Shown here: one piece after another, positions 8,711-19,198 of the stretch | How positions within the stretch are numbered: position 1 is the stretch's first letter | How the letters are laid out: each line of letters begins with the position of its first letter | Virus record (IMG/VR): IMGVR_UViG_3300027906_000170 | Span: 1 to 22,363 of that record | DNA from: a virus | Length of the DNA stretch: 22,363 bases | Reading direction: 5' to 3' (one strand) | Position numbers and translations under genes: made by a program | Notes under the pieces: model-generated | Told to the model about the DNA's origin: nothing | Seen by the model: only the letters and a program-made list of their open reading frames with translations | Database searches by the model: none

Positions 8711-8955
8711 AACAGTTACTCCTTTTCCTCATATCGCATAAACCTTAAACACAACAACAAAAACCCAATACTATAGTTCTATAAGAACATCCCTGAGGGG
8801 GGCGAAGGTCATCACCCACCACGCGACTAGTGGTCGGCGGCGTAACGCCGTCACGACGCTTGCGGCGTGATGGGTGGGGTTCCGCGGGATTCCTAAGATA
8901 ATCCGAAATTTTAATTTCGTGATTTCTCTTGGAATTGGGCGGTGAGACTAATCAC
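8711..8955. other. Intergenic region with GC-rich stem-loops
   Basis: No gene is seen. An AT-rich part (8711-8790) is the likely promoter zone for the minus-strand operon. It is followed by a much more GC-rich block: CGTCACGACG at 8849-8858 and CGGCGTGATG at 8863-8872 form a hairpin with one mismatch and one G-T pair; CGGCG-TAA-CGCCG lies at 8838-8850; and CCCACC (8815-8820) can pair with GGTGGG (8873-8878) around both. Beyond it are GGATT/AATCC and the hairpin CGAAAT-TTTA-ATTTCG near 8907-8922. The block could be a structured leader or small RNA, a protein-binding cruciform, or a second terminator for read-through. Confidence 0.45.
8776..8788. promoter_or_regulatory. Palindrome GTTCT-ATA-AGAAC, possible operator
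   Basis: A perfect 5-base inverted repeat around ATA sits 66 bases upstream of the first gene of the ssb operon, within an AT-rich stretch suitable for a promoter. The minus strand reads TATAGAACTATAGTATTG here. Binding of a dimeric repressor is a reasonable inference. No confident -35/-10 pair can be assigned. Confidence 0.3.
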
Positions 8956-9031
8956 AAAAAAAGTTAAGAGAGGAGAGAGAGGGAGTCGTCCGAGTCGAAG
9001 ACCCGGACTACTCCAGAGGCTCTCTCCTCTC
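8956..9031 (-). terminator. Long intrinsic terminator of the 10358-9038 transcript
   Basis: On the minus strand, just past the TAG at 9038, a stem of GAGAGGAGAGAG with CTCTCTCCTCTC (9031-9020 and 8979-8968, 12 pairs) continues inward with a second stem (9013-9004 against 8992-8983, 9 of 10 pairs) and a GTC-TTC-GAC cap. It is followed by TTAAC and seven T residues (8962-8956). This is a textbook Rho-independent terminator with an unusually long stem, and suggests a strongly expressed transcript that must be kept out of the next operon. Confidence 0.85.
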
Positions 9032-9037
9032 AAGTGA

Positions 9038-9937: not shown

Positions 9938-10188
9938 TAGTTAGCTCCTTTTATGTTTGGTATTTGTGAGTAGTAGATCGTCCATACCGTGACTGGTCGA
10001 TCAGTGGCAGTAGCGTAAGAGGACTTAGTAAAGTACTCAACACGCTGATCTGCCATATTTATGTGAGCAACGCGAACAGCAAGCTCAAAAGTGCCAAGCT
10101 TGTGATTCACGTTATTCACTCGATAATACGGACGGAAGTTGGATACCTCTGTTCCGTATTCACGTATCGATATGATGTTTAACCGCAT
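9937..10188 (-). CDS. Hypothetical basic protein, 83 residues
   Basis: The protein is beta-rich and basic (RPYYRVNNVNHKLGTFELAVRVAHI, VEYFTKSSYATATDRPVTVWTIYY). GGAGG lies just before the ATG, and the start overlaps the end of the preceding 59-residue gene by 10 bases; its stop merges with the next ATG. It may have an SH3-like or OB-like small barrel, but that is only an impression from strand spacing. The function is unknown. Confidence 0.65.
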   Translation of the reverse strand: MRLNIISIREYGTEVSNFRPYYRVNNVNHKLGTFELAVRVAHINMADQRVEYFTKSSYATATDRPVTVWTIYYSQIPNIKGAN

Positions 10189-10358
10189 TCAACCTCCTTC
10201 AATTCACCAATTTGTTCAGCTATTACTTCCCACTGGTGTACTGGAATGAATGGGATGAAATTGACGAAAGTAAAAACGCCGTCTTCAGCCAATTCAGGGT
10301 AATCGGCATGAAATTCAAGTGCTGATTTCAGATGCCAAAATGGTTTAAATGTAAGCAT
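10179..10358 (-). CDS. 59-residue hypothetical protein, first gene of its unit
   Basis: ATG 10358 is preceded by AGGAG with a 6-base spacer and the frame runs to TAA 10181-10179. The product, MLTFKPFWHLKSALEFHADYP followed by FTFVNFIPFIPVHQWEVIAEQIGELKEVECG, is aromatic-rich and resembles short phage proteins with a helix-strand-helix layout. Overlap with the next gene and a good ribosome-binding site support it. Without it there would be an unexplained 170-base gap. The function is unknown. Confidence 0.68.
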   Translation of the reverse strand: MLTFKPFWHLKSALEFHADYPELAEDGVFTFVNFIPFIPVHQWEVIAEQIGELKEVECG

Positions 10359-10658
10359 ATTATTCTCCTAACCCTGCGCCCAGAACAGACGCAGTTAACC
10401 GCTCTGCATCACACTGACCAGAGGCGTAGCAATGTTTGGTTAGTCGCTGAGGCGGCGTAGCAATCTCCGATTGCACAGCCGGTCGCAGTAGACTCCAGCA
10501 TTGCACAGCAGTCTGTGGCTCGGTTTCAGCGGTCATAATTGGGGCGTGTGACCGTAGCAATCTACGATTGCACAGGTAACTAGAACCGATTTGAGGGCGA
10601 AATCGAAGGTGTGATAAAGAGCGCGGTTAACTGTGTGTGTGTGTAACTGTAGAGAGAG

Positions 10659-10812
10659 CCAGTTTTATTAACGAAAGCCCTAGGCCGAGAGCGGAGCAGG
10701 ACGCACATCCGTAGCAATCTATGATTGCACAGGATACGTCCCCGAAAGTGCGCTCTTTGCATCTTTCGGCGAAGGCCAAGCGAAGCGTAGGGAGTTTCGA
10801 TTAATAAAATGG
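10659..10812 (+). other. Structured domain I of the candidate RNA
   Basis: TTTTATTAA (10663-10671) pairs with TTAATAAAA (10801-10809), CGAAA (10672-10676) with TTTCG (10795-10799), and CCCTA (10678-10682) with TAGGG (10788-10792); GGCC at 10683 and 10774 may continue the stem, and CC (10659-10660) can pair with GG (10811-10812). Inside are a long hairpin, GGACG (10699-10703) with CGTCC (10737-10741) around ATCC/GGAT and GCAATC/GATTGC, and directly after it CCGAAAG (10742-10748) with CTTTCGG (10763-10769). The 14-base loop of the latter contains GCGCTCTTT, complementary to AAAGAGCGC at 10616-10624. Confidence 0.65.
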
Positions 10813-11000
10813 AATCACTACAGACTGTTGTTAGTAGCGAGCCTAGCGAATGCGTGGCGATGCAGTAGACTAGAATCTCCGATTCTTAGTCGCTGGTGTC
10901 ATTTTAAATCCCGAAGGGATTTCGTAGCAATCTATAGTCGCTCGCTCGCGAGCAGACTTGATTGTCCAGAATGACACTACTAACTACAGTGTGTGTGATT
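10813..11000 (+). other. Structured domain II of the candidate RNA
   Basis: AATCAC (10813-10818) pairs with GTGATT (10995-11000), then ACTGT (10824-10828) with ACAGT (10986-10990), a T-T mismatch, and GTTAGTAG (10830-10837) with CTACTAAC (10977-10984). Inside are a 10-pair hairpin with one bulge (10868-10891) and a stem TGTCATT/AATGACA (10897-10903, 10970-10976). The stem holds AAATCCC-GAA-GGGATTT (10906-10922) and a long hairpin at 10928-10964 whose nested stems are CAATC/GATTG, AGTC/GACT and GCTCG/CGAGC. The layout is a clean multi-branch junction. Confidence 0.65.
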
Positions 11001-11720
11001 TGCTTGCACTCGAACGGTTACAGCGCGATGAGCGGAGGGAACCGGAGCGAAGCCACAGGTTCGTGATGGCGTTAGAAATCTCTGATTTCACAGCCATCTA
11101 GAATCGTCAAACATAGCAAACATAAGATCGTTGACGGATCTCTCCGTCACGACCGTCCACAGGTCGCTCTGTGGTCGGGAATCCAGTGGATTCACGAAAC
11201 ACAAACACACGGACAACACACCCATACAAGCCCACCAGACACACCAGCCGCATAACACAGCAAAAACCATAGAAACACAGGAAAATACAAGCTCAAAGTT
11301 CAGGCACCCCTGTGGTGTAGCATTTTTTGCTGTTGTTAGCGGGTGATGTCGGTGTTTTATCAGCAAACCGAAGACGCAAGTCGAGGTTTGGTGTGTCGCG
11401 TGGGGGGTGATGTACCTGAGGCCCCCTCAGATATTAAGTGTCTGGTGTGTTTGGTTGTGCGTGGACACCGGTTGTGTTTGTTTTGGGGGTTTGGGTTGTT
11501 GCCTAGTTTCCCCTTGGGTGCCGTCCGTCCGTTTTGAGTACGGTTCCACTCTGAGTTCGAGCGATCACGCTTTGCTCTGTCCCTGCCTGACTTGCTGGTA
11601 GGGAGCAGAAGCCCTTCTGACGGGCGAACGGAACCTGATAAGGGTTCGCACATCTCGTTTTTATGAATATGCCCTGTGATGTGGACGGGGCGCGTATATA
11701 TTTATATCATAGGAGAGAAC

Positions 11721-11786
11721 ATGTTCAAACCTTATAGGAGTTTTTTATGGCCGCAATGTCAAATTATTTGGAGACTAAAGTCTTAG
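11721..11786 (+). CDS. Possible 21-residue leader peptide overlapping the first tail gene
   Basis: ATG 11721 follows AGGAG with a 5-base spacer, as good a site as that of the real downstream gene. The frame reads MFKPYRSFLWPQCQIIWRLKS and stops at 11784-11786, inside the 131-residue tail gene in another frame. The downstream Shine-Dalgarno (AGGAG 11736-11740) lies within this frame, so its translation could couple to or modulate the start of the virion operon. It may equally be chance. The AT-rich TATATATTTATAT around 11695-11707 is the likely promoter -10 zone, but no clear -35 is seen. Confidence 0.3.
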   Translation: MFKPYRSFLWPQCQIIWRLKS

Positions 11787-12142
11787 ACTATGTTCTTCGC
11801 GATCAAGCAGATTGGGCGCCTACCGCTGTGTACCTTTCGTTGCATACAGCTAACCCTGATGAAGACGGTTCCGGTACAGAGGTGTCTGGTGGGTCTTATG
11901 CAAGGCAGGCTATTACTTTTAATGCCGCTCACGCTACTAACGGTACGATAGACAATTCGTCTGAAGAGACTTTCACTAACATGCCGGGAGTTGCTGTGAC
12001 TCATATAGGCATTTGGGATTCTGTTGATTCGTCTGGTAGTAACAATTTGTTGTTTTATGGTGCTGTGTCTTCGCCTAAGACTGTTACTGCTGGTGACACT
12101 ATTACGCTTGCGGCGGGTGCGCTAGATATAACTTTGGCTTAG
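11747..12142 (+). CDS. Phage tail/virion protein, 131 residues
   Basis: The sequence follows a well-known small phage structural pattern: NYLETKVLDYVLRD at the N-terminus, PTAVYLSLHTANPDEDGSGTEVSGGSYARQAITF in the first half, then VTHIGIWDS, LLFYGAVSSPKTVTAGDTITLAAGALDITLA at the end. Members are small beta-sandwich proteins encoded beside tail fibres in many phages and often described as tail fibre or Gp80-like proteins. AGGAG lies 6 bases before the ATG. It opens the plus-strand virion block, right after the candidate structured RNA. Its exact place in the virion is unknown. Confidence 0.78.
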   Translation: MAAMSNYLETKVLDYVLRDQADWAPTAVYLSLHTANPDEDGSGTEVSGGSYARQAITFNAAHATNGTIDNSSEETFTNMPGVAVTHIGIWDSVDSSGSNNLLFYGAVSSPKTVTAGDTITLAAGALDITLA

Positions 12143-15847: not shown

Positions 15848-16326
15848 TGGCAATTAAAATAGTAAACGGAGTTGAGTATCCTCTTACTGAGGAAGAAGAA
15901 GCCGCTAGAATCGAAGTGTCAGACGCTTGGGATCTGAGAATTGATGACACGCGAATGAACCGCGATCATATTTTGAAAGTAACAGACATAGTGTTACTTG
16001 AAGATTTTCCTTTGTCTGCTGGCACTAAAGCAGAATGGTTGGCGTACAGGCAAGAGTTAAGAGATTGCTTAGAATCATTTGAGAAAGTTTCCACGTTTGA
16101 GTTTCCTAAGTCACCTATTATTAAAAAAGCTGGCGAAGACGCATATAACGCTAAAAAAGCCAGCGGACCTTCTGATGCAGAAAAAGAGGAAAAAGGTGGG
16201 CAAGAAGCTTGGGATGCGCTCACTGATGAAGAAAAAGAATCTGAAACAGAAAGACTCGCATTGCATGAAAAACAAAGTGCTGAAACTGTAGCTGGTTATC
16301 CGGGTGCTGGCATAAACCCTGTGTAG
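15847..16326 (+). CDS. Phage tail assembly chaperone-like protein, 159 residues
   Basis: Residues 31-73 (RIDDTRMNRDHILKVTDIVLLEDFPLSAGTKAE..., ending YRQELRD) follow the pattern of the tail assembly chaperone family that sits next to fibre genes: an Arg-rich start, the tDw/tDi element, a Pro-containing loop, then W-x-x-YRQ-x-LRD (W64, 67-73). The C-terminal half is a highly charged helix. This family helps fold or attach tail fibres. Its place directly after three fibre genes and before the enzyme cassette supports the role. The match is from memory of the motif, so it is moderately certain. Confidence 0.68.
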   Translation: MAIKIVNGVEYPLTEEEEAARIEVSDAWDLRIDDTRMNRDHILKVTDIVLLEDFPLSAGTKAEWLAYRQELRDCLESFEKVSTFEFPKSPIIKKAGEDAYNAKKASGPSDAEKEEKGGQEAWDALTDEEKESETERLALHEKQSAETVAGYPGAGINPV

Positions 16327-16862
16327 TGGTTGAAAATCTTAAAAACCCTTTTACAGATAATTACTTTGGACTTAAAGAACAAGTTTTAAGTAATCATTTC
16401 CCTTGGTTGTTTTATGACGAAACTATTAAGGACACGCCTAATAAGTCGAAAGATTCATGGTTTTTTTCGCATACAATAATCAGCAGACCATTAGATTATT
16501 CGCTTATTCCAACTGTTAGTTCCACATATTTTGATCTAACTCATCAAGTTTTAAAAGAAATATTTGAAGTTAATGAAATAGATGTTAGATGTATTTATAG
16601 GGCTAACTTTAATTTAGTTCATCCTCAAACTGTTAAAAAAACTCCTATGCATGTGGATCATTACGATCTTCCCCATAAAGTATTATTAGTTTATTTAACC
16701 AGTTTTGTTGGTGGGCGTACTATTGTAGAGATTGAAGGTAAGGAACATTTCACAGAACCTAAAGAAGACAGGATTGTTACTTTTGATGGCTCGTACTTAC
16801 ATGCCGCTGAAACACCGGAAGATGGCACGAGGGTAGTTTTAAATTGCACGTATCATGGTTAG
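16326..16862 (+). CDS. Fe(II)/2-oxoglutarate-dependent oxygenase 1
   Basis: A 178-residue protein with a GTG start overlapping the previous TAG (TAGTG). The double-stranded beta-helix motif is visible: H109 and D111 (MHVDHYD, an HxD iron pair), GGRT near 129-132, distal H159 (SYLHAAETPEDGT) and R169, which would bind 2-oxoglutarate. The fold and length fit small phage/prolyl-hydroxylase-like oxygenases. Its substrate is unknown. It is co-transcribed with a second oxygenase and a halogenase, so the three may act on one molecule or structure. Confidence 0.82.
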   Translation: MVENLKNPFTDNYFGLKEQVLSNHFPWLFYDETIKDTPNKSKDSWFFSHTIISRPLDYSLIPTVSSTYFDLTHQVLKEIFEVNEIDVRCIYRANFNLVHPQTVKKTPMHVDHYDLPHKVLLVYLTSFVGGRTIVEIEGKEHFTEPKEDRIVTFDGSYLHAAETPEDGTRVVLNCTYHG

Positions 16863-17407
16863 ACCCTTTCATATCGCAATATCAGATAGAAGATCCATCT
16901 GTTTGTAAAACAATTATTGAAGGAAGCGAACTTTCTAAACGCTGGTCTAAATCACAAACAGTGTCAGGGGTTGATACTTATTCAAGAGATTCGGATTCTT
17001 TAAATTTTTTAGCTGAAGCTCCACCTGTTGAACATGAACCCGTTCTCAAATTTATGCAGGAATGCGTGGATCATTACTGTGAGAGTATTCCTGCCGCTGG
17101 GCAAGTTCCAACATTCGGTCTTAGAGAAGGATACGCATTGTTACGATACCAGCCGGATCAGGCGTATCATGCGTTTCACTCTGATGCAGGGTGGCCTAAT
17201 CTTATATATAGGCATTTCACATTATGCATGTTTATGAATACTGTCCAAGATGGTGAGATGGAATTTAAACATCAGAAACTTAAAGTTAAACCTGTAGCTG
17301 GTAGGGCTATTATTTTCCCTGCTTTTTGGGGGTACACTCATAGAGGGTTACCGTCACCTGACACACGGTATTTATTGAATGCTTTCTACGGATTTTTAGA
17401 AGAATGA
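16844..17407 (+). CDS. Fe(II)/2-oxoglutarate-dependent oxygenase 2
   Basis: A 187-residue protein. The likely start is TTG at 16844, overlapping the first oxygenase by 19 bases, with GAGGG upstream; the next in-frame ATG would remove the N-terminal 70 residues. Catalytic residues are H112 and D114 (FHSDAGW), distal H166 (GYTHRG) and R175. The YHAFHSD and FMNTVQDGEMEF layout resembles prolyl 4-hydroxylase-like PKHD enzymes. It is clearly distinct in sequence from oxygenase 1, so this is not a recent duplication. The substrate is unknown. Confidence 0.82.
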   Translation: MHVSWLDPFISQYQIEDPSVCKTIIEGSELSKRWSKSQTVSGVDTYSRDSDSLNFLAEAPPVEHEPVLKFMQECVDHYCESIPAAGQVPTFGLREGYALLRYQPDQAYHAFHSDAGWPNLIYRHFTLCMFMNTVQDGEMEFKHQKLKVKPVAGRAIIFPAFWGYTHRGLPSPDTRYLLNAFYGFLEE

Positions 17408-18534
17408 AGTTAACAGTAGTTGGTCGAGGAATGGCAGGGTTACTGTCTGCGGCACATTTTCAGAGATGGTCTGATTATGAGATAGAAGTTATAGGTGATC
17501 CTGAAATCCCACCTGTTACTGTAGGGGAAGGTTCGCTTCTTTCTTTCCCTGAGATACTTCAAGTTAATTTAGGGTTTGGTCTTAAAGACATGTTTGAAGT
17601 TGGGGCGACACAAAAACACGGCATCTATTATGAAGGATGGGGAAAAGAAAATTTTCTGCATCCATTTAAATTAGGTGCGTATGCGTTGCATTTTGATTCA
17701 TCAAAAATGCGCAACTGGATTGAAACAAGATTAACTAATGTTACTTTCACAGAAGATCATATTGATAACATAGAAACTGTAGACGGTGATTATGTTATGG
17801 ATTGTCGGGGGTGGGGATGGGAAAACGAAAATCTTAGGATACCGTTAGAAGCACCTATTAATTCTGCTGTGATAGTTGACAGAGAACACACATTAGATAC
17901 AACAACTTTAGCTAAAGCTATGAAAAATGGTTGGATGTTTGGGATTCCTTTACAGCACAGAATGTCATACGGGTATGTATATAACGATAAGTTCGCTACT
18001 GAAGAAGAAATCTTGGAAGAGATGCTTGAAGTAGTAGGCGAAGGATCTCCGCATAGGTCAATGTGGATTCCTAGTTATTACACAGGTAAACAAGACGGGG
18101 AAAGGATTATACGAAACGGTAACGCTTCTCATTTGTTTGAACCACTTGAAGCAACATCGCTTGGGTGTGTTGACAGAATAAATAAGTTAGCTTACGAGCA
18201 TTGGCATAATCCTGAAGATCAAATATTATTTGGAATTTATTATTCTGAAATGCTAGTCGATGTCGAAGCGTTAATTAACATGCACTATTTAAACGGGTCA
18301 GTGCATAAAACAGATTTTTGGAAATACGCAAGTGAAATAGCTGAAGAAACAATGGCTAATTTACCTCTAAACAGATTAAGAACAATCCGATCTGTTTTAA
18401 AAGAAGAAGATTTACACCCTAGTGTAGAAGCATTATTTGGTTGGCCAGTGCATTCTGTGAAAATCAATTTTGATTCTATAGGTGTGACAATAGAAGATGT
18501 GGAAAGATGGATGGAGAAAACTCCCAATAGATGA
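17404..18534 (+). CDS. Flavin-dependent (tryptophan-type) halogenase
   Basis: A 376-residue enzyme, shorter than bacterial tryptophan halogenases of about 500-540. The FAD-binding GRGMAG lies at 7-12. TVGEGSLLSFPE (39-50) corresponds to the G-x-GEA-T/S region of the family. K71 (TQKHGIYYEGW) is the likely equivalent of the catalytic lysine that carries hypohalous acid or chloramine. WMFGIPLQHR (177-186) corresponds to the WxWxIP signature with the second Trp replaced by Phe, followed by GYVYNDKF. FEPLEATS (245-252) is the third diagnostic block. The known phage halogenase VirX1 of a cyanophage shows that such enzymes can be active on varied substrates. ATGA overlap with oxygenase 2 implies coupled translation. 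No flavin reductase is nearby, so the host would supply FADH2. Confidence 0.88.
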   Translation: MKLTVVGRGMAGLLSAAHFQRWSDYEIEVIGDPEIPPVTVGEGSLLSFPEILQVNLGFGLKDMFEVGATQKHGIYYEGWGKENFLHPFKLGAYALHFDSSKMRNWIETRLTNVTFTEDHIDNIETVDGDYVMDCRGWGWENENLRIPLEAPINSAVIVDREHTLDTTTLAKAMKNGWMFGIPLQHRMSYGYVYNDKFATEEEILEEMLEVVGEGSPHRSMWIPSYYTGKQDGERIIRNGNASHLFEPLEATSLGCVDRINKLAYEHWHNPEDQILFGIYYSEMLVDVEALINMHYLNGSVHKTDFWKYASEIAEETMANLPLNRLRTIRSVLKEEDLHPSVEALFGWPVHSVKINFDSIGVTIEDVERWMEKTPNR

Positions 18535-18547
18535 TATTTTTTAAGGC

Positions 18548-19198
18548 ATGACTATATACAGAGCCGCAGGTGTAGACTATCGTGTCACAACCCTCAACTA
18601 TGATGGAGGGACTCAACCTACTCTTACTGCTTCTCTTTCCAGTTCAGCTTCTATAACAGCAGAAATAGTAGAGGAAGCATCAATAGCTTCAGCTATATCT
18701 AGCGCCGCTTCAGTAGCGGCAGAGATTACTGCTACTACAGGTATAGCGGCGGCGATTTCTTCTTCAGCTTCGATAACAGCCGTTATCGTAGAAGAAGCTT
18801 CTATCGCTTCAGCGATTTCAAGTTCTGCTTCTGTAAGCACAGCTTTGAATATGACTAATTTTATTACTTCTTCTTTGTCTTCAACAACGTCGAAGGTTAC
18901 AGTCATTATCGAAGAGGCTTCTATAGCGTCTGCTCTTACTACAACTTCGACTGTTTCAGCGGACATTGTTAGAGAGCGGCCTATAGAAGTTAATCTTTCT
19001 GGGAGTGGTTCAATAGAGGGAGCGTTAACACATGCTCACTTGATTAGTGCTGGCCCATTTGGTGGGGTAGCGTCACTTGCTTGTGTTATTGGCGCGGATA
19101 GACCGAATCCTCATGTAACTTTGGCAATTTCTTTGCCAACGAATGTTACTCTTGTATCATCGTTAGTAGATGACGTTTCGATTACAGTAGGTGTTTAA
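18548..19198 (+). CDS. Repeat protein with 20-residue units, probable fibre or capsid decoration
   Basis: A 216-residue protein. Residues 27-142 are six imperfect units, the later five exactly 20 residues long, with the pattern ASIASAISSSASVSAEIVEE. Odd and even units alternate in their last four residues. The Ile/Val and Ser/Ala periodicity suggests a stacked beta structure or solenoid. The remaining C-terminal part is non-repetitive and beta-rich. It lies between the halogenase and the small Ig-like protein, just ahead of terminase. A virion decoration role is inferred from context. Confidence 0.65.
   Translation: MTIYRAAGVDYRVTTLNYDGGTQPTLTASLSSSASITAEIVEEASIASAISSAASVAAEITATTGIAAAISSSASITAVIVEEASIASAISSSASVSTALNMTNFITSSLSSTTSKVTVIIEEASIASALTTTSTVSADIVRERPIEVNLSGSGSIEGALTHAHLISAGPFGGVASLACVIGADRPNPHVTLAISLPTNVTLVSSLVDDVSITVGV

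Follow-up and report, generated by a model that had tools for sequence, protein, structure and literature searches.

What is the role of a stretch of about 1.3 kb that carries no recognizable gene and lies at the junction of two divergent gene blocks in a phage genome? This question is raised by the virus record IMGVR_UViG_3300027906_000170, of which 22,363 bases (hereafter, the window) were analyzed. The placement of the stretch agreed with a preceding interpretation made from the letters only (the sequence-only reading), which had located it between an early-type unit and the virion operon: early-type genes encoding SSB, exonucleases, and a WhiB-like protein are transcribed leftward on its left side, and the late genes on its right side run rightward from position 11,747. 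Our results indicate that the element is almost certainly a real structured RNA. We consider it somewhat more likely than not that the complete description also applies, namely a plus-strand RNA of about 1.3 kb from an undescribed family, transcribed alone and acting as a scaffold or particle. Judging from sequence comparisons, the favoured assignment of this family is a large modular noncoding RNA class of marine phages that is not described in the sources searched.

The noncoding status of the region was confirmed, since no reading frame in 10,359-11,700 exceeds chance length, as had been claimed. The short overlapping open reading frames (ORFs) of the element are broken by stops or frame shifts in relatives, and the gaps in the 3' alignment are of 1-2 nt, with codon phase absent from the variable sites. 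A protein-coding gene was rejected on these grounds, and the conserved coding signal that the sequence-only reading had named as counter-evidence was looked for in the homologues and not found. The segment 10,370-11,665 folds to -538 kcal/mol on the plus strand, compared with -429 kcal/mol for dinucleotide shuffles (z score, -10.9), and to -467 kcal/mol on the minus strand (z, -8.8). Helices were well defined when 10,370-11,700 was folded, and the inferred limits of the element are set by its first conserved helix on one side and its 3' pseudoknot on the other (Table 1).

Homologous noncoding regions were identified at the same early/late junction in approximately 20 related marine phage contigs (cited by L numbers), which were retrieved with DNA patterns and with the late protein encoded alongside. 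In every contig of sufficient length, the region is flanked by an early minus-strand gene on one side and by the late operon on the other. Identity over the final ~250 bp (11,504-11,750) is 86-94% in most relatives and approximately 77-82% in the most divergent ones. In L003, L006, and L010, the adjoining late protein shares only 37-40% identity with that of the window, while the 3' core is still closely similar; therefore, selection or recombination would act on the RNA element itself. BLAST searches of cultured phages and plasmids with the region gave no match, and L096-L098, obtained from pattern scans for the modules A and B described below, were chance matches within unrelated sequence.

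Pairing is conserved in the 3' core (alignment A1), in which 91.3% of the cells were paired, compared with 35-47% when partners were slid. Eight pairs showed double changes, and the 47 double-change cells exceeded the 14.3 obtained in shuffles, with none of 500 shuffles reaching as high a value. Covariation, whose absence from an alignment of homologues had been named as an argument against the RNA, was thus found, and the proposal of a candidate giant phage RNA is strongly supported by pairing kept through compensatory changes. In the terminal pseudoknot, covariation affected four of six and two of four pairs of the two interleaving helices, with 97-100% of the cells paired. The 3'-most helix occurs as CACAUC/GAUGUG, CAGACU/AGUCUG, CAUACU/AGUAUG, or CAGCCU/AGGCUG, and the second helix alternates between GCCC/GGGC and ACUC/GAGU. 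The 3' end had been placed near a T5 tract; the pseudoknot does span this tract (11,658-11,662), but the structure continues about 30 nt beyond the proposed end, to approximately 11,694. A distant version of the core was found in L031/L032, and a search with the core model among more distant phages sharing the late gene (L033-L094) gave nothing convincing. A match in L105 was a 22-nt partial one only, and a candidate helix at A1 columns 56-58/64-66 was rejected, with 3.7% of cells paired.

By sequence comparison, the 5' half exists as several unrelated architectures, which group the window with L027; L001, L002, L003, and L102; L019 and L026; L020, L025, and L011; and the short forms L018 and L017. 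Domains I and II (Table 1) correspond to the pair of abutting domains, with their long interrupted stems, that had been described. As a stricter test, the structure was predicted from the window alone and then scored in L027, which is 64% identical. In domain II, 83% of 72 window-only pairs were kept, compared with 32-40% when partners were slid, including 11 double compensatory changes and three single changes. In domain I, where the alignment is poor and contains indels, 58% of the pairs were kept, compared with 27-40%; its closing helix finishes in a ACUGUGUGUG strand present in all six close homologues. Column-shuffle tests of alignment folding gave z scores of -9.0 for the window/L027 5' half, -8.8 for 10,805-11,020, -12.0 and -12.4 for subtype I, -8.5 for L019/L026, -8.0 for L020/L025/L011, and -6.8 for the 3' core.

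Many contigs break inside or beside the RNA (L001/L006, L002/L010, L004, L009, L013, L015, L016, and L021), and these are probably assembly breaks where the conserved core meets variable sequence. In addition, positions 1-361 of L024 resemble L003 in their upstream part and the 3' region of L025 in their downstream part, a mosaic that suggests either that the contig is chimeric or that recombination occurred within the RNA.

Small motifs recur within these architectures. In module A, a 3x3 internal loop (GUA/ACA) separates an inner stem, nearly always GCAAUC/GAUUGC, from an outer stem that varies by copy and is always complementary (CGGC/GCCG, ACC/GGU, AUCC/GGAU, AGC/GCU, GUUCC/GGAAU, GCGC/GCGC, UCGG/CCGA, or AAGC/GCUU). 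The pattern matched 14 times in six RNAs (12 distinct copies, with nested alternatives counted once), compared with 0.22 in shuffles. Module B is an AGUAGAC/GUCGCU internal loop found in either strand order. Element C is a compact H-type pseudoknot, a candidate from sequence, with the loops GU and YUC and covarying stem versions (AGAUC/GAUCU, CGACC/GGUCG, and, in relatives, CGAUC/GAUCG and UGAUC/GAUCA). Two copies are present in the window and one in each subtype I RNA, and the short L018 and L017 RNAs also contain this element. Because many other matches to the descriptor were unrelated and due to chance, the claim for element C rests on the shared loops and stems and not on the count. Together with the terminal one, three probable pseudoknots are present where the sequence-only reading had named one.

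Structured noncoding spots were also observed in the early region of relatives (L018, 1100-1330; L025, 3100-3210; L020, ~280-400), and those of L018 and L025 carry element C. A second structured noncoding stretch of the window (8795-9036, plus strand; fold z, -6.6) lies beside an early gene for a 299-aa protein, and its core, GGGGUUCCGCGGGAUU..CCGAAAUUUUAAUUUCG..AAUUGGGCG, is found again in L001 and L003, where it shows changes that appear to be compensatory.

Table 1. Features of the structured element and its immediate surroundings, in window coordinates.
Feature	Position	Strand	Basis or details
Closest early-side reading frame, 59 aa, divergent from RNA	10179..10358	-	ORF list
Whole structured noncoding element	10370..11700	+	Fold z -10.9; homologues at same place
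Domain I	10385..10640	+	Closing helix 10389-10400/10625-10636, P 0.99
Module A, open form, GUA/ACA loop around GCAAUGUU/AGCAUUGC	10424..10509	+	Pattern search
Module B, GUCGCU strand first	10442..10494	+	Pattern scan
Module A, CGGC-GUA-GCAAUC-ucc-GAUUGC-ACA-GCCG	10453..10481	+	Pattern search
Module A, ACC-GUA-GCAAUC-uac-GAUUGC-ACA-GGU	10551..10577	+	Outer stem AGC/GCU in L027
Domain II	10642..11022	+	Closed by 10642-10650/11014-11022
Module A, AUCC-GUA-GCAAUC-uau-GAUUGC-ACA-GGAU	10707..10735	+	Pattern search
Domain II core, best-supported portion of 5' half	10812..11001	+	Window-only pairs tested in L027
Module B, AGUAGAC strand first	10864..10894	+	Pattern scan
Composite hairpin of module A and variant module B (GUAGCAAUC-UAUAGUCGCU...AGACUUGAUUG)	10923..10970	+	Fold, homologues
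Domain III hairpin with module A variant (GUUAGAAAUC..GAUUUCACA)	11058..11105	+	Fold
Element C, copy 1, AGAUC.GU.UGACG.GAUCU.CUC.CGUCA	11125..11149	+	Descriptor search
Element C, copy 2, CGACC.GU.CCACA.GGUCG.CUC.UGUGG	11150..11174	+	Descriptor search
Long imperfect helix, A/C-rich arm with G/U-rich arm	11186..11482	+	Predicted fold only, not covariation
Conserved 3' core	11507..11694	+	18 distinct sequences, alignment A1
3' H-type pseudoknot	11649..11691	+	CACAUC 11649-11654/GAUGUG 11678-11683; GCCC 11671-11674/GGGC 11688-11691
Promoter-like TGGACG-17-TATCAT between RNA 3' end and late operon	11682..11710	+	Consensus match only
First late-operon gene	11747..12142	+	Pfam Gp80 / PHROG 240 structural protein

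We propose that the structured RNA would be transcribed as its own product from the plus strand and would end near 11,694, just ahead of the promoter-like site of the late operon. A fixed, pseudoknotted 3' core would be joined to interchangeable 5' domains that reuse small motifs. By analogy with GOLLD, ROOL, and OLE (PMC12286853), the RNA may work as a folded scaffold or particle, and, as in GOLLD and ROOL, the contacts made by its repeated motifs may be tertiary, intermolecular, or with proteins. The fixed 3' core, the exchangeable 5' domains, and the connector-like modules are more readily explained by a scaffold or an assembling particle than by a switch. An extension of this proposal, which we regard as tentative, is a kit-like, self-assembling giant RNA with exchangeable 5' domains and modules serving as standard connectors, which might form a large particle in infected marine actinobacteria.

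The most serious alternative, which we consider rather unlikely, is a 5' leader: the structured RNA would belong to the late mRNA and control late expression, for example by antitermination, mRNA protection, or translation control through the 3' pseudoknot, which lies about 55 nt ahead of the first start codon of the late operon. The element is invariably located directly upstream of the late operon in the same sense, its most conserved part is the 3' core closest to the gene, and no convincing terminator separates it from the operon. However, a leader of more than 1.3 kb would be extreme, and the architecture of the 5' half is wholly changed among relatives while the operon is unchanged. A free RNA is preferred mainly because the promoter-like TGGACG-17-TATCAT, which separates the RNA from the gene, is conserved in the aligned close relatives (although not in the distant L031) and suggests, as a consensus match only, that the late mRNA starts downstream.

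Several observations weigh against a large, independently transcribed plus-strand RNA. Neither a clear promoter upstream of 10,385 nor, at the 3' end of the element, a convincing intrinsic terminator was found. Little of the 5' half is retained in the shortest relatives, L018 and L017, where the column-shuffle z was only -1.4, so the large size would be dispensable in some members. The evidence for the strand is moderate: it favours the plus (late-sense) strand, while in two comparisons (10,805-11,020 and L018/L017) the minus strand has a slight advantage.

In favour of the minus strand, on which the RNA would be an early-operon leader, a reading frame begins less than 30 nt from the element and the inverted repeats do fold on both strands. 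This 59-aa frame gave no match in family searches. We regard such a leader as improbable, because alignment energies are lower on the plus strand in most groups, G.U exceeds A.C at internal wobble sites in the helices (9 versus 3), and the module A copies at this locus are all read on the plus strand. The possibility that the region acts as DNA, its hairpins being dyad-symmetric binding sites in a replication origin, a packaging site, or operator palindromes, has a slighter chance. The GC skew of the window switches sign nearby, the module A stems are palindromic, and the contigs of many relatives end inside the region; however, these ends are scattered and occur where sequence common to co-occurring phages begins, as expected for assembly breaks. 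Moreover, the sequence of the module A outer stem is wholly different from copy to copy with complementarity kept, and covariation extends to long-range helices and pseudoknots, which argues against a role as DNA.

Whether the element is a divergent GOLLD or ROOL or a new class had been left undecided by the sequence-only reading, and the results favour a new class, because neither an Rfam match nor a nearby tRNA was found. The covariance models for GOLLD, ROOL, and OLE gave no match when 10350-11750 was searched at E values of up to 10, nor at values of up to 1 when the window and seven homologous loci were searched, and the whole window contains no tRNA gene. GOLLD often lies near tRNA islands, so the absence of tRNA genes is not strictly excluding. 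Two other Rfam matches were discarded: LOOT in L003 (25.8 bits against a threshold of 46.4), in the opposite sense and elsewhere in the contig, and UCA1 (12.7 bits against a threshold of 80), a chance match. A highly diverged GOLLD or ROOL missed by the models, although of the same size class, phage-borne, and, for GOLLD, likewise conserved in 3' and variable in 5' (PMC12286853), is the least probable explanation given these negative searches. No earlier description of the family was found in the literature searched, which excluded most subscription journals.

The host of this phage group is probably a member of the Actinomycetota, because the early genes include the WhiB-like protein (scoring slightly below the Pfam cut-off) and the homologous contig L102 (PBOM01000048.1) was binned in an Actinomycetota metagenome-assembled genome. 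A WhiB-carrying phage fragment was previously assigned to Ca. Actinomarina (PMC3861242). The late half of the window also contains a tryptophan halogenase-like gene (17404-18534; Pfam Trp_halogenase), two adjoining genes that resemble oxygenases by eye (16326-17407), and a protein of repeated Ala/Ser-rich units (18548-19198; SSASITAEIVEEASIASAI...).

To our knowledge, the very large structured RNAs of bacteria and phages number only a handful, with unresolved functions. GOLLD, ROOL, and OLE form RNA-only complexes; GOLLD forms a homo-oligomeric RNA-only nanocage and its expression rises in the lytic phase, and ROOL has a conserved intermolecular kissing loop. An apparently unrelated large RNA family would provide an independent case on the role of giant phage RNAs and on the generality of large assemblies. 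Its natural domain swaps and short forms would serve as ready-made mutants, in which the 3' core is always kept and other parts are exchangeable.

Among known systems, the manA and wcaG motifs are structured RNAs of cyanophages (PMC2864571) and, like the element described here, adjoin phage genes. However, these motifs are compact, each has a consensus structure of its own, and they are thought to be cis-regulatory, whereas the window RNA has no Rfam match. OLE, a large and ornate RNA of bacteria, is known from covariation (PMC12286853); it forms a dimer, whereas the window RNA is phage-encoded, lies at an operon junction, and does not match its model. ROOL is encoded by phages and is large; it contains several pseudoknots, and its linker is poorly conserved (PMC12286853). 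The window RNA is also large and phage-encoded, with several candidate pseudoknots, but it lacks a model match, occurs in another context, and is approximately twice the length of the 659-nt ROOL of the cryo-EM study. The likeness to GOLLD consists of elaborate secondary structure, size class, and a phage-borne nature, and it extends to the plan of a conserved 3' region and a variable 5' region (PMC12286853), as the 3' core is 86-94% identical in most relatives and the 5' half is variable, which does not imply homology. In contrast to GOLLD, the window RNA has neither a covariance-model match nor a nearby tRNA, lies at the early/late junction, and appears to be made of repeated GUA/ACA and pseudoknot modules.
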